DNA of 64,000 nucleotides, from contig NZ_SNWQ01000017.1 of assembly GCF_004361855.1 (NCBI RefSeq), positions 1 through 64,000 of the forward strand, given 5' to 3'. The position numbers were made by a program, and so were the translations under genes. Below are positions 25,849-35,206 of the stretch, piece by piece; positions within the stretch are counted from its first letter, which is position 1, and every line of letters begins with the position of its first letter. Origin of the DNA: Kribbella caucasensis (lineage in GTDB: Bacteria > Actinomycetota > Actinomycetes > Propionibacteriales > Kribbellaceae). Below the pieces are notes generated by a model. That model searched no databases. It saw only the letters and a list, made by a program, of their open reading frames with translations, and was not told where the DNA came from.

Positions 25849-27516
25849 GTGACTGGACCAGTGGGCGGCGGCACCAGCCGCCGGACGTTCATCTCCCTGC
25901 TCGGCGCGGGCGCCGCGGTGACCGCCGGCGGCGCCACGCTGACCGGTTGCTCGGACGGCAAGTCCGGTTCGTCGACGTCCGGGCGGGCCGAGACCGAGGA
26001 CAAGCTGTCCGGGCTGCTGCCGAAGTACATCGCGTACGAGTCGGTCAAACCGGACCTGCCGGGTGAGAACGGCGCCGCGCCGGGTTTCACCAAGTACCCG
26101 GCCGAGCTGAAGCGGGCCGTCCCGGACAAGGCGGTCACGAGCGGCAAGGAAGTGTCCGCGATGACGCCGCTGTGGAGCCCGATGCCGCCCGGCCTCGGCA
26201 ACAACTCGTACTACGACGTGAACAACGAGCGGATCGGCGCGCCGGTCCGGTTCAACATCCTGAACGGCAACGACTACGGCGACAAGCTCGGCCCGATCCT
26301 TGCCGCGGGCAACGTGCCGGAGCTGCTCTGCGTCCCGGGCTGGAACATCGCCGGGCTGACCCGGTTCGGTCAGGCGGTGGACAAGCTGTTCGAGGACCTG
26401 ACGCCGTATCTGGCCGGGGACAAGGCTTCGGCGTACCCGATGCTGGCCAACCTGCCGACCAGGGCCTGGGCGTACGGCGTCTGGAACAACCAGCTCAAGG
26501 CGGTGCCGTTCCCCTCGGACGGCTTCCCCTGGATGCTGATGTATCGCAAGGACATCTGCGACCAGTTCGGCGCCGAACCGCCGAAGAACGGCGACGACCT
26601 GCTCGCGCTGGGCAAGCAACTGACCGATGCGAAGGCGAACCGCTGGGCCTTCGGCGGGGTCTCCGACGAGGTGATCCGGGCGTTCGGGGCACCGTCGGGC
26701 TGGCGCAAGGAATCTGACGGCAAGCTGGTGCACAAGATCGAGACACCGGAGTTCGAGGAGGCGGTGGCCTTCATCCGGAAGCTGTTCCAGACCGGCTACG
26801 TGCACCCCGAGGTCGTCGGCAACGCCGGCGCGGACCAGAACGCGCTGTTCGAGGGCGGCAAGCTGGTGATCCGCCAGAACGGGCTCGGTGGCTGGCAGGA
26901 GTCGCTGCAGCGCCAGGCCACGATCAACCCGAAGTACAACCCGCAGCCAGTGATGCCGTTCGCCCATGACGGCGGGACGCCGATCACCTGGGGCGGCGAC
27001 CCGGCCGGCATCTTCACCTTCGTGAAGAAGGGGCTCGGCGAGGCCCGGGTGAAGGAGCTGCTCGGCGTCCTCAACTACACCGCCGCGCCGTTCGGGACCG
27101 AGGAGAACCAGCTCTACATGTACGGGAAGGAGGGCACGCACTACACCAAACAGCCGTCCGGTGCGCCGAAGCTCACCGCTCTGGGCCAGAAGGAGGTGTC
27201 GCAGACCTACATCTTCCTCGGCGGCCGGCCGACGGCTATCACCCAGAGCGAGTACCCGGGCTACGTGCAGTCGATGAGCGAGTGGCAGAACGCGGCGGCC
27301 AAGGTGCAGGAGAAGAACCTGTTCGACGGGATCCGAGTCGAGCAGCCGGCCAAGATGGCGGCGCTCAACCAACCGTTCGACGACGCGCTGCAGGACATCT
27401 TCCGCGGCCGTAAGCCGGTCAGCGAGCTGAAGACCGCGGTCAAGGCGTGGCAGACCAACGGCGGCAACGAGGGCCGGGACTTCTACGCCAAGGTACTCAG
27501 TGACAACGGTCGCTAA
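25849..27516 (+). CDS. Oligosaccharide-binding lipoprotein of ABC importer
   Basis: A 555-residue solute-binding lipoprotein of the large LplA-like type, which binds oligosaccharides outside the membrane. It has a twin-arginine signal (SRRTFISLL, residues 10-18) and a lipobox LTGC with Cys34. The GTG start is preceded by CCAGGAGAG. The permease genes follow; the first overlaps its 3' end by 17 bp. Given the GH74 gene in the same operon, xyloglucan oligosaccharides are the likely ligand (inference). Confidence 0.85.
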   Translation: MTGPVGGGTSRRTFISLLGAGAAVTAGGATLTGCSDGKSGSSTSGRAETEDKLSGLLPKYIAYESVKPDLPGENGAAPGFTKYPAELKRAVPDKAVTSGKEVSAMTPLWSPMPPGLGNNSYYDVNNERIGAPVRFNILNGNDYGDKLGPILAAGNVPELLCVPGWNIAGLTRFGQAVDKLFEDLTPYLAGDKASAYPMLANLPTRAWAYGVWNNQLKAVPFPSDGFPWMLMYRKDICDQFGAEPPKNGDDLLALGKQLTDAKANRWAFGGVSDEVIRAFGAPSGWRKESDGKLVHKIETPEFEEAVAFIRKLFQTGYVHPEVVGNAGADQNALFEGGKLVIRQNGLGGWQESLQRQATINPKYNPQPVMPFAHDGGTPITWGGDPAGIFTFVKKGLGEARVKELLGVLNYTAAPFGTEENQLYMYGKEGTHYTKQPSGAPKLTALGQKEVSQTYIFLGGRPTAITQSEYPGYVQSMSEWQNAAAKVQEKNLFDGIRVEQPAKMAALNQPFDDALQDIFRGRKPVSELKTAVKAWQTNGGNEGRDFYAKVLSDNGR

Positions 27517-28501
27517 GCGTCCAGTGAGCGCGGACCCGGTGGTCGAGGCACGGGCCGGCACCGGGTCGGGTGGACGACGCCGTCGCGGTGGCGCGGGGTT
27601 TCGGCATCGGTTGCGTCGGGACTGGCCCTTGCTGTTGATGGTCTTGCCGGTGGTCGTGCTGCTCGGGGTGTTCCACTACTTCCCGACCCTCGGCAACGTG
27701 ATCGCGTTCCAGGACTACTCCCCGTACGCCGGGATCCGGGACAGCGAGTTCATCGGGCTGGCCAACTTCAGCCGGATGTTCGCCGAACCCGCCTTCTGGA
27801 CGGCGGTGCTCAACACCCTGTCGATCACCGCGGTCCAGCTGGTGTTCTTCTTCCCGATCCCGATCGCGTTGGCCCTGCTGCTCAACAGCGTGCTGTCGGT
27901 CCGGTTGCGCACCTTGATCCAGGGCGTCGTGTACCTCCCGCATTTCTTCTCCTGGGTACTGGTCGTCTCGTTGTTCCAGCAGATGATCGGCGGAGCCGGG
28001 CTGCTGGCCCAGTCGCTGCGGGCGAATGGGTACGAGGCCATCGACCTGATGACCAAACCCCACACGTTCATCCTGCTGGTGACCGCGCAGTCGATCTGGA
28101 AGGACGCCGGCTGGGGCATGATCGTGTTCCTCGCCGCCCTCAGCACGATCAACCCCGCCCTGTACGAGGCCGCGGCGGCCGACGGCGCGAACCGGCGGCG
28201 CAGGTTGTGGCACATCACGCTGCCCGGGCTCCGACCGGTGATCGTGCTGCTGCTCATCCTCCGGCTCGGCGACGCGCTGACGGTCGGCTTCGAGCAGTTC
28301 ATCCTGCAGCGCAGCGCCGTCGGTGGCAACGCGGCTGAGGTGCTCGACACCTACGTCTACTACCAGGGCCTGCTGGTCGGCGATTTCGGGTACGGCGCCG
28401 CGGCCGGCCTCTTCAAGGGCGTCGTCGGACTCGTCCTGGTCCTGGTGGCCAATCGATTCGCCCATCTCGTGGGTGAGCAGGGGGTGTATTCCCGATCTTG
28501 A
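27500..28501 (+). CDS. ABC sugar permease (LplB-like)
   Basis: A 333-residue MalF-like permease with six membrane spans and an EAA loop reading EAAAADGAN. The GTG start lies inside the last codons of the binding-protein gene. The end is remarkable: the native junction was probably CGATCATGACC, with stop and next start overlapping as ATGA. An IS605-type element now begins straight after CCCGATC. Its first bases TTGA complete the Ser codon TCT and give a new TGA, so the protein still ends YSRS. Confidence 0.88.
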   Translation: MTTVAKRPVSADPVVEARAGTGSGGRRRRGGAGFRHRLRRDWPLLLMVLPVVVLLGVFHYFPTLGNVIAFQDYSPYAGIRDSEFIGLANFSRMFAEPAFWTAVLNTLSITAVQLVFFFPIPIALALLLNSVLSVRLRTLIQGVVYLPHFFSWVLVVSLFQQMIGGAGLLAQSLRANGYEAIDLMTKPHTFILLVTAQSIWKDAGWGMIVFLAALSTINPALYEAAAADGANRRRRLWHITLPGLRPVIVLLLILRLGDALTVGFEQFILQRSAVGGNAAEVLDTYVYYQGLLVGDFGYGAAAGLFKGVVGLVLVLVANRFAHLVGEQGVYSRS

Positions 28502-29252
28502 CGTCCTCCCCGCCCTGAGGGACGGGGATTCCAACTACTACGTGGAGGTAGTGTGTTGAGGTTCACGCTTCGGCGAGACGCGTGGTGGCGTCTCTCGGCG
28601 TGCGCTGACGGCCCGTCCGGCCGCGATGTTGGCTGCCGCGTTCACGTCCGCGTTCGCCCGGTGTCCGCAGGCTGCGCACCGGAACACCGCTTGGCTCTCG
28701 CGGTTGTCCGGTGCGGTTCCCGACGCCAAGTCGTACCGGATCAGCCGGAACCGGACCCGGCCGACCTTGGGCACGCTGACCGCGGCCCACTTGCGGTTCA
28801 GCTTGACGATCCGGGACGCCTGGCGGCCGACGATCCGGAACCCCTCGTGCAGCCCGGCTTTGCGCCAGGTCGGCCGCCGATGGGTCCCTGCGTAGAAGTT
28901 CCGGACGGCCTGGTCGAAGTCGCGCAGCGCCTGCTGCTGGACGGTCTGCGACCCGGCGCGCAGCCAGCCGAACGCGGCCCGGGCCTCGGTCAACTGTCGG
29001 CACTGCTCGACGTATCCCGGTGTTGGGCCCTTGTCGGGGGTCCACATGGACCATTGCTCGAGCGCCAGGTTCCAGACGTACCGGGCCTGCCGGCACTGCT
29101 CCAGCAACGCAATCTGCTGCGCGGGTGTCGGGTACATCCGGTAGCGGGACATGCCACTTACCCAATCAGGCGGGACCGACAATCCCCGATCCCCGAAGGG
29201 AGGGAGTCGCGGTTCCTCCCCGCCCTCAAAGACGGGGCCTTCCCGCGACCAA
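28498..29252 (-). mobile_element. Deleted TnpB-type IS605-like element, copy 1
   Basis: This 755-bp relative of the element at 33755-35092 keeps both ends: TTGACGTCCTCCCCGCCCTG at the left and a matching GGAGGA/GGGCGGGG hairpin before CGCGACCAA at the right. The interior has lost about 600 bp. CCCGATC occurs directly on both sides (28491-28497 and 29253-29259). It separates two permease genes of one operon. The left end, downstream of tnpB, has the hairpin shape of an omega-RNA 3' end. Confidence 0.8.
28538..29152 (-). pseudogene. TnpB remnant with internal deletion
   Basis: The frame starts MSRYRMYPTPAQQ and stays open to a TAG at 28538 (204 residues). It joins the first about 140 residues of TnpB directly to the last about 65. 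The RuvC-I Asp and RuvC-II Glu segments and half of the zinc finger are missing, while FRCAACGHRANADVNAA with the RuvC-III Asp remains. Nuclease activity is not expected. At the junction about 30 bp are present in inverted orientation relative to the intact copy. Confidence 0.8.
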
Positions 29253-29259
29253 CCCGATC

Positions 29260-33739: not shown

Positions 33740-33754
33740 GAGGTCATGCTGTGG

Positions 33755-35092
33755 TTGACGTCCTCCCCGCCCTGAAGGACGGGGGATTCCAACCACTACC
33801 CGGAGGCAGCGAGTTGAGGTTCACGCTTCGGCGAGACCCGTGCCGGCGTCTCTCGGCGTGCGCTGACGGCCCGTCCGGCCGCGATGTTCACTGCCGCGTT
33901 CACATCCGCATTCGCCCGGTGCCCGCAGGCCGCGCACCGGAACACCGCTTGGCTCTCGCGGTTGTCCGGTGCGCAGTGCCCACAGACGCTGCAGGTCTGC
34001 GACGTGTACGCAGGATTCACCTTCTCCACCCGGCCCGCGGCCTTGTGCTCCAGCCGGGCCACCAGGTCGCCCCACCCGTTGGCCAGGATCCCCCGGTTCA
34101 GCCCGGCCTTGGCGCGGCGACGGTTCGGCAGGTACCGACCTGGTCGTTCCGGATCGGGCTTGGGCTTGGGGCGCCGGGTCATCGGTCCGATCCGCAGGTT
34201 CTCGACGCGGATGACATCGAACCGTCGGGCGAGGTCGGTGCTGGTCTGCTCCACCCAGTCCTTGCGCCGGTCACCGGCCCGGGCGTACAGCTTCGCGATC
34301 GCGGCCTTCACCCGCCCACGGCGCTTGGAGCCGCGACGGCAGCGGGCGCGGCGGCGCTGCAGCTGCTTGAGCCGTGCCTGTTCGCGCTCCGTCAGCCCGG
34401 GGCAGGTCAGCAGTTCGCCGGTGGACAGGGCCGCCGAGACGGTGACGCCGCGGTCCACCCCGACCACCTCACCGGTACCGGGTGCGGGGATCGGCGGCGG
34501 GATCGCGGCGAACGCGAGGTGCCAACGGCCCATCCGGTCGCGGGTGATCCGGTACGACTTCGCGTCCGGAACCGCACGGGACAGCCGGAACCGGACCCAG
34601 CCGACCTTCGGCACCTTGACCGCGGCCCACTTCCGGTTCAGCTTGACGACCCGGGACGCCTGGGAGCCGACGATGCGGAACCCCTCGTGCACTCCGGCTC
34701 TGCGCCAGGTTGGCCGCCGGTGGGTCCCGGCGTAGAAGTTCCTGACCGCCTGGTCGAAGTCCCGCAACGCCTGTTGCTGCACGGTCTGCGACCCGGCCCG
34801 CAGCCAGCCGGACGCGGCCCGGGCCTCGGTCAACTGGCGGGCCTGCTCGACGTACCCGGGCGTCGGGCGTTTGTCGGGGGTCCACATCGACCATTGCTCC
34901 AGCGCCATGTTCCACAGGTACCGGGCGTGCCTGCACTGTTCCAGCAACGCGGCCTGCTGCGTGGGAGTCGGGTACAGCCGGTATCGGGACATGCCACCGA
35001 TCCAATCAGCAGGGACCGACAGTTCCCAGTTTCCGAAGGGAGGGGGTCGCGGTTCCTCCCCGCCTTGAAGGACGGGCTTTCCCCGCGACCAA
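33755..35092 (-). mobile_element. TnpB-type IS605-like element, complete, copy 2
   Basis: A 1,338-bp element defined by comparison with copy 1. The left end starts TTGACGTCCTCCCCGCCCTG and carries the hairpin CCCGCCCTGAAGGACGGGGG. The right end carries CCCCGCCTTGAAGGACGGG and finishes CGCGACCAA. Similar subterminal hairpins at both ends are typical of the IS200/IS605 superfamily. It encodes only TnpB (IS1341-like), no TnpA transposase. The DNA after tnpB probably encodes an omega RNA whose guide would be the flank CCACAGCATGACCTC. The insertion lies in a GH12 relic. Confidence 0.85.
33796..34992 (-). CDS. tnpB: TnpB RNA-guided nuclease (IS605-family accessory protein)
   Basis: A 398-residue TnpB protein starting MSRYRLYPTPTQQAALLEQC. 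The RuvC residues look intact: Asp in GVDRGVTVSAAL, Glu in VIRVENLRIGP and Asp in RANADVNAAVN. The zinc finger CSVCGHCAPDN...FRCAACGH is present. TnpB proteins cut DNA guided by an RNA from the element's end and help to retain the element at its site. Copy 1 is a deletion derivative of the same family. Activity is inferred from intact motifs. Confidence 0.9.
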   Translation of the reverse strand: MSRYRLYPTPTQQAALLEQCRHARYLWNMALEQWSMWTPDKRPTPGYVEQARQLTEARAASGWLRAGSQTVQQQALRDFDQAVRNFYAGTHRRPTWRRAGVHEGFRIVGSQASRVVKLNRKWAAVKVPKVGWVRFRLSRAVPDAKSYRITRDRMGRWHLAFAAIPPPIPAPGTGEVVGVDRGVTVSAALSTGELLTCPGLTEREQARLKQLQRRRARCRRGSKRRGRVKAAIAKLYARAGDRRKDWVEQTSTDLARRFDVIRVENLRIGPMTRRPKPKPDPERPGRYLPNRRRAKAGLNRGILANGWGDLVARLEHKAAGRVEKVNPAYTSQTCSVCGHCAPDNRESQAVFRCAACGHRANADVNAAVNIAAGRAVSARRETPARVSPKREPQLAASG

Positions 35093-35206
35093 TCCGATGA
35101 ACTGGATCCGCGGCCGGGGCTGGATCGGTGACGCCACCATGAACGAGGTGCAGTTCGGCTTCGAGATCACCTCGTCCAGCGGCGGCATGAACTTCACCAG
35201 CAACAG

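Follow-up and report, generated by a model that had tools for sequence, protein, structure and literature searches.

A tnpB element of Kribbella caucasensis with an internal deletion and a short inverted segment, most likely left by a template switch

The window analysed here, a stretch of 64,000 nucleotides from one contig of Kribbella caucasensis, carries two copies of a tnpB element, one of which lacks the middle of the gene and reads backwards over a short segment at the place of the loss. How such a copy could have arisen, what it can still encode, and whether it has moved since its formation are the questions that this locus raises. The full-length copy (copy 2) occupies positions 33755-35098 (1344 bp, minus strand) and contains an intact tnpB of 398 amino acids at 33796-34992, with profile matches above the cut-off to PF01385, PF07282 and PF12323, as expected of the tnpB of an IS1341-type element. 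No Y1 tnpA lies inside the element, and the sole Y1 match of the genome is found on another contig; the element is a member of the IS200/IS605 superfamily, of the IS1341 (tnpB-only) type. Copy 2 itself apparently interrupts a gene, as its flanks (window 33741-35108) form one frame across the site when judged by eye (YEVMLW / MNWIRG). The shortened copy (copy 1), delimited by local alignment, extends over 28498-29258 (761 bp), again with the tnpB sense on the minus strand; its right end is at 28498, and its left end lies near 29258, where the exact boundary is uncertain. The right end of copy 1 reads GTCAA on the sense strand, as do 61 of the 62 right ends compared, the exception being the short derivative L072.

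To what should copy 1 be compared? The same genome holds, in addition to copy 2, seven further full-length copies with intact open frames and one copy that bears an insertion (L042, 1180-2565, an otherwise full-length copy broken by about 1.4 kb). The pairwise identities among these nine full-length copies all fall between 86.3% and 89.7% (36 pairs), which points to a family that is old and star-like in this genome. Because the nine copies differ from each other by 10-14%, copy 2 is not the direct parent of copy 1, and we use it as a reference only.

Against this reference, copy 1 is collinear on both sides of the rearrangement: by local alignment, positions 28498-28715 correspond to 33755-33973 at 92% identity, and 28732-29258 to 34573-35098 at 87%. 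Between these flanks, the 608 bp of copy 2 at 33974-34581 are replaced by 26 bp, and copy 1 is 583 bp shorter overall, which bears out the deletion of about 600 bp that a preliminary description of the locus had proposed. The segment at 28716-28743 (minus strand) matches the reverse complement of 34545-34572, its counterpart on the minus strand of copy 2, at 26 of 28 positions in a base-by-base comparison; with the adjoining GTGCG that both orientations have in common, the match extends over 28711-28743 versus 34545-34577, at 31 of 33 positions. Local alignment gives the same picture over a wider range (28701-28755 against the reverse complement of 34533-34587, 87%). For the 27-mer at 28716-28742, the inverted match reaches 25 of 27, compared with 17 of 27 for the best match that copy 2 offers in direct orientation and a maximum of 21 of 27 in 2000 dinucleotide shuffles of copy 2 searched on both strands. 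Aligned on both strands as the preliminary description had suggested, the segment is inverted, and the collinear placement that would speak against it was not found, since with either flank, right or left, as the anchor and shifts of -4 to +4, collinear placements agree at only 3-11 of 26 positions. Copy 1 is, indeed, a tnpB deletion copy with a short inverted segment. The inversion and its two mismatches stand as first reported. A segment copied from the nearby opposite strand (26 of 28; 25 of 27 against at most 21 in shuffles) and two flanks collinear with the reference (92% and 87%) are two features of a template-switch mutation in the four-point model.

The junctions are informative as to the process. 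The left junction falls in an imperfect inverted repeat of 14 bp, on the arm at 28702-28715. This arm, GGTTGTCCGGTGCG, immediately precedes the switch and agrees at 12 of 14 positions with GGCTGTCCCGTGCG, which stands on the opposite strand beside the copied segment, and 5 nt of this agreement, GTGCG, are exact. Among the 614 registers on the opposite strand of the copy 2 core this one is the best, with the runner-up at 10 of 14. The microhomology claimed for this junction is thus present, in the form of GTGCG rather than the GGTGCG first read. At the right junction (28742-28743; 34582-34583 in copy 2) the two branches have only the 2 nt CA in common, and the collinear order resumes at 34582. 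In the coordinates of copy 2, the four points of the event are 1 = 33973, 2 = 34577, 3 = 34545 and 4 = 34582, in the order 1-3-2-4.

We consider it likely that copy 1 began as a full-length insertion and then lost the middle of its tnpB, most probably in a single template-switch event. A full-length IS1341-type element would have inserted first, at the ATGA stop/start overlap of two transporter-like genes, with the deletion following later. DNA synthesis would then have left its template at one arm of the imperfect inverted repeat, copied the opposite strand for about 30 nt, and returned to the original strand at a position where the second junction shares CA only, skipping about 600 bp; the product would be a deletion carrying an inverted segment. 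The single event, its direction, and the order of insertion before deletion are what we infer from the alignments. In favour of one switch are the inverted match (25 of 27, with 21 as the shuffle maximum) and the position of the left junction on the best inverted repeat of 614 registers; against it are the homology of just 2 nt at the right junction and the span of about 600 bp, more than one would expect of a switch in a single fork. Such a mutation is unusual yet of an ordinary kind, and a slip during replication is its most likely origin.

The same product would also result from two steps, in which recombination at the 14-bp imperfect inverted repeat inverts the core of about 600 bp and a deletion then removes most of it. 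The inverted repeat at the left junction would be a natural site for the first of these steps, and the outcome could not be told from that of a single switch; strand switching, the cause named in the preliminary description, is supported as the most economical account of a product that both paths would yield. The two-step path requires two events, the second of which must end within about 10 bp of the right arm of the first. Moreover, no copy with the inversion only was found among the matches in 38 genus genomes (one genome per species, so that a short-lived intermediate could escape), nor was such a form present in genome_contigs when searched with a looser exact pattern. We regard this path as less economical than one template switch, and as unlikely. 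Less probable still is the repair of a double-strand break by end joining, with a fragment of about 30 bp rejoined backwards and the adjoining 570 bp lost. Ku/LigD end joining is present in many actinobacteria, and this, like the 2-nt homology at the right junction, is in its favour; but joining has no need of the 5 exact nucleotides and the 12 of 14 inverted homology at the left junction, best of 614 registers, and we give this explanation little credence. Finally, reads of different copies might have been wrongly joined in the assembly, in which at least four contigs (C5, C7, C44 and C46) end inside copies of the tnpB family. The rearranged stretch is shorter than 100 bp, a length that single reads are expected to span, and the inverted 27-mer occurs once in the window. 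A chimeric assembly is unlikely because none of the 20 other compared stretches of the same genome contains the 27-mer exactly, and because one base of the inverted segment is absent from the 10 other copies of this genome that were compared (it is present in two copies of relatives). Such an artefact seems hardly credible. A single template switch remains our preferred reading of the junctions.

The place of insertion shows how the element could enter a pair of genes with little harm. Upstream of copy 1 lies a gene recognised by eye as ABC-transporter permease-like (27500-28501, plus strand), whose stop codon is now supplied by the first bases of the element. The downstream gene, too, resembles an ABC-transporter permease on inspection by eye. 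At copy 1 this gene ends in TCT TGA where relatives have TCA TGA, in both cases serine followed by a stop, and the element begins with TTGA and leaves the ATG of the downstream gene intact. To compare empty sites, we used 14 loci of relatives, drawn from 29 genus genomes with a match to the upstream gene at 84-90% identity. The two flanking genes overlap by ATGA in the relatives and are uninterrupted in 14 of 14 loci examined; the insertion of copy 1 is specific to the source species among these relatives. The sequence GATCGGG is found on both sides of copy 1, so that a target duplication of 3-7 bp may be present there, or the left end may have been altered.

Across the family, 46 of 58 elements have ATGA (TCAT on the sense strand) somewhere within 35 nt at their left end, and 28 have it at its usual place, as raw counts. 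The family is often found beside TCAT, which on the other strand is ATGA, a possible stop/start overlap, and there the TTGA end restores the stop and the next start is intact. Of the 45 elements whose flank was long enough, 38 have an ATG frame beside the left end that stays open over 85 codons; the second control frame does so in 26, and the other downstream control frame, which starts with TGA, is bound to score 0. On the upstream side, the frame that the TGA of the element terminates is free of stops over 85 codons in 29 of 46 elements, against 18 and 3 for its control frames. Insertion can, in other words, spare both genes, as is shown for copy 1 and suggested for other elements by these frame counts.

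With the loss of its middle, copy 1 retains a fused open frame at 28541-29182 (minus strand), of 214 amino acids if read from the TTG at 29182 and 204 from the MSRYR start. The frame keeps the N-terminal helix-turn-helix match and positions 37-60 of the Cas12f1-like_TNB profile (PF07282), and a profile search found no PF01385 in it. About 200 core residues are missing, including the GVDRG and RVENL stretches of copy 2, which we take to be RuvC motifs, and copy 1 accordingly lacks the intact RuvC core of an active TnpB nuclease. Because this catalytic core is absent, the product should not cut DNA. That the new frame stays open, as first noted, is borne out, but it carries little weight because 27% of simulated events of the same class keep the frame open (27.4% of 20000); the open frame is no evidence of selection. 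A repressor of the TldR type, a nuclease-dead TnpB, was considered as well. TldR-type repressors keep the whole RuvC fold and have lost the catalytic residues; copy 1, with some 200 core residues missing, does not fit this type. Compared with the divergence of the copies, the deletion seems to be recent, and the N-terminal part appears to have evolved as a gene until recently, because the mean dN/dS of that part is 0.21 (0.23-0.27 in intact copies) and five of its six private changes are at third positions. The C-terminal part has a dN/dS of 0.59, the highest of nine copies (0.28-0.56 in intact ones), from four private changes, too few to interpret. Copy 1 has the look of ordinary decay in a tnpB-only IS1341-type element and is known so far from one genome.

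Occurrence of the same derivative elsewhere in the genus would indicate that it is still mobile, a check that the preliminary description had suggested. The outcome was negative: the rearranged junction is present in 1 of 38 genus genomes, at the locus of copy 1 only. With up to 3 mismatches, the junction pattern was found in these genomes at 12 places in 6 genomes, of which copy 1 has 0 mismatches, and the other 11, with 1-3, have the native orientation throughout and belong to full or contig-cut elements. In genome_contigs, where records of the source genome may be excluded, neither the exact junction 40-mer nor a looser pattern of 29 positions matched any record, and when the 110-base junction was sought in 58 genomes, none of the best 15 candidates per genome matched it from end to end outside copy 1. 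The 38 genus genomes, genome_contigs and the 14 loci of relatives gave no sign of movement after the derivative was formed. Nor did other deletion-type elements contain an opposite-strand insert, copy 1 being the only one of 19 checked; the weak inverted matches of C12, C16, C28, L093 and L130 (66-75%) are in parts also collinear. That check left out L082-L085, from genome G029, in which no left end was detected, and the divergent long or partial copies L074 and L089-L091. No description of a TnpB element with an inverted scar was found among the titles and abstract openings that searches of the open-licence literature returned.

Other shortened members of the family had different histories. 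Two deletion derivatives of the source genome, C12 and C28 (L049 and L052), have the left deletion boundary and some left-end variants in common at different sites, and show no higher identity between them than with their nearest full copies (86% and 89%); that they descend from one derivative, which moved after its deletion, is only suggested. Genome G029 has nine short elements of 279-291 bp (L076-L081 and L086-L088) that keep both family ends, with middles of 60-91 bp that have no match in either direction among 38 panel copies. These elements must have multiplied, because their flanks do not match each other. They are MITE-like, and no Y1 transposase was found in G029. A remnant of 165 bp in G010 and a full copy in G022 (L075 and L121) have both flanks in common, at 79% and 77%; because the full copy stands between the same two flanks, at one insertion site in two species, the remnant has decayed in place.

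What copy 1 has kept entirely is the RNA region at its right end. A putative omegaRNA core at 28485-28596 (minus strand) matches the Rfam family HgcC with 27.6 bits and an E value of 0.0024, below the gathering score of 50, and 13 of the matched bases, at 28485-28497, fall outside the element, at the putative guide position. Copy 2 has its match in the same place, on the tnpB sense strand (33742-33850, 28.9 bits, against the same gathering score of 50). To assess conservation, we used 60 right ends of 135 bases from the 62, leaving out the short derivatives L072 and L075. In the predicted structure, 96.2% of cells are paired and 94 cells are changed on both sides (shuffled mean 24), and the covariation score of 0.233 exceeds those of shuffled (0.110, sd 0.006) and of slid alignments (0.050 at most), although the number of pairs with a two-sided change, 10, is not above that in shuffles (9.0). 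By this score, the family has the conserved right-end RNA of the IS200/IS605 superfamily, IS1341-type. Among the eight intact copies, synonymous differences per pair and codon, taken in windows of 20 codons, are 0.134-0.340 in the first sixteen and fall through 0.146, 0.133 and 0.096 to 0.066 in the last four; two windows far from the right end are also low (0.134 and 0.149), comparable to the first two of these four. The modelled right end agrees with a guide RNA of the ISDra2 kind.

Since copy 1 retains this region and its catalytic core is gone, it is at most a non-autonomous remnant. Its flank at the guide position is GATCGGGAATACACC, which stands directly after TCAT, identical in every base, in the empty site of one relative (G004, L059) and with small differences in others. 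In the four derivatives of the source genome, 218-278 bp are left at the right end, a length that roughly coincides with the tnpB zone where synonymous change is lowest. These derivatives, copy 1 included, might be passengers reduced to a working omegaRNA, the guide of which matches their own empty site, so that an intact TnpB of a sister copy would cut that site in trans and the remnant would be retained; we consider this reading doubtful. Retention of more than the omegaRNA core is not a rule, as local alignments elsewhere end at 85, 117 and 122 bp, and in G029 mostly at 127 (75-191).

What moves the family is a wider question. The right end was matched in 32 of 38 genus genomes, and the Y1 transposase model (PF01797) in only one of the 38, the source genome. 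The Y1 transposase of that genome was considered as the mover, and its 3.3-kb locus is without ends of the tnpB family. Copy 1 alone changes no view; it provides a clear example of a TnpB element disabled by what appears to be a single complex replication error, with its guide-RNA end surviving. The family, with no Y1 match in 37 of 38 genomes, could make it testable how tnpB-only elements spread and persist.

Among known systems, the closest description of the event is the four-point model of short-range template switching, applied to great apes, which assumes in the excerpt considered here a local switch within one fork (PMC7954356). Copy 1 is fully described by the three fragments of that model: L to 1, 2 to 3 (in reverse, on the other strand) and 4 to R. 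Its order, 1-3-2-4, differs from the majority orders given in the excerpt, 1-4-3-2 and 3-2-1-4, and its points, in a model that is otherwise local, span about 600 bp, and therefore the event leaves a large deletion. In quasipalindrome mutations, as outlined in the excerpts of PMC7202029 and PMC8604942, the switch to the other strand is likewise guided by an imperfect inverted repeat, and inversion of the spacer of the repeat is one named outcome of template switching between inverted repeats (PMC8604942); in copy 1, by contrast, most of the spacer is lost. For the element itself the comparison is with ISDra2, whose right-end RNA is, in the excerpted account, about 150 nt long and has a flank-derived guide of about 16 nt (PMC8612924). 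As in ISDra2, the 3' end of tnpB and the right end of the Kribbella family have a conserved RNA with the flank as guide, and a short motif, TCAT, often stands beside the left end; unlike ISDra2, which has a tnpA, the Kribbella family has none in the element, and copy 1 has lost the nuclease core as well.
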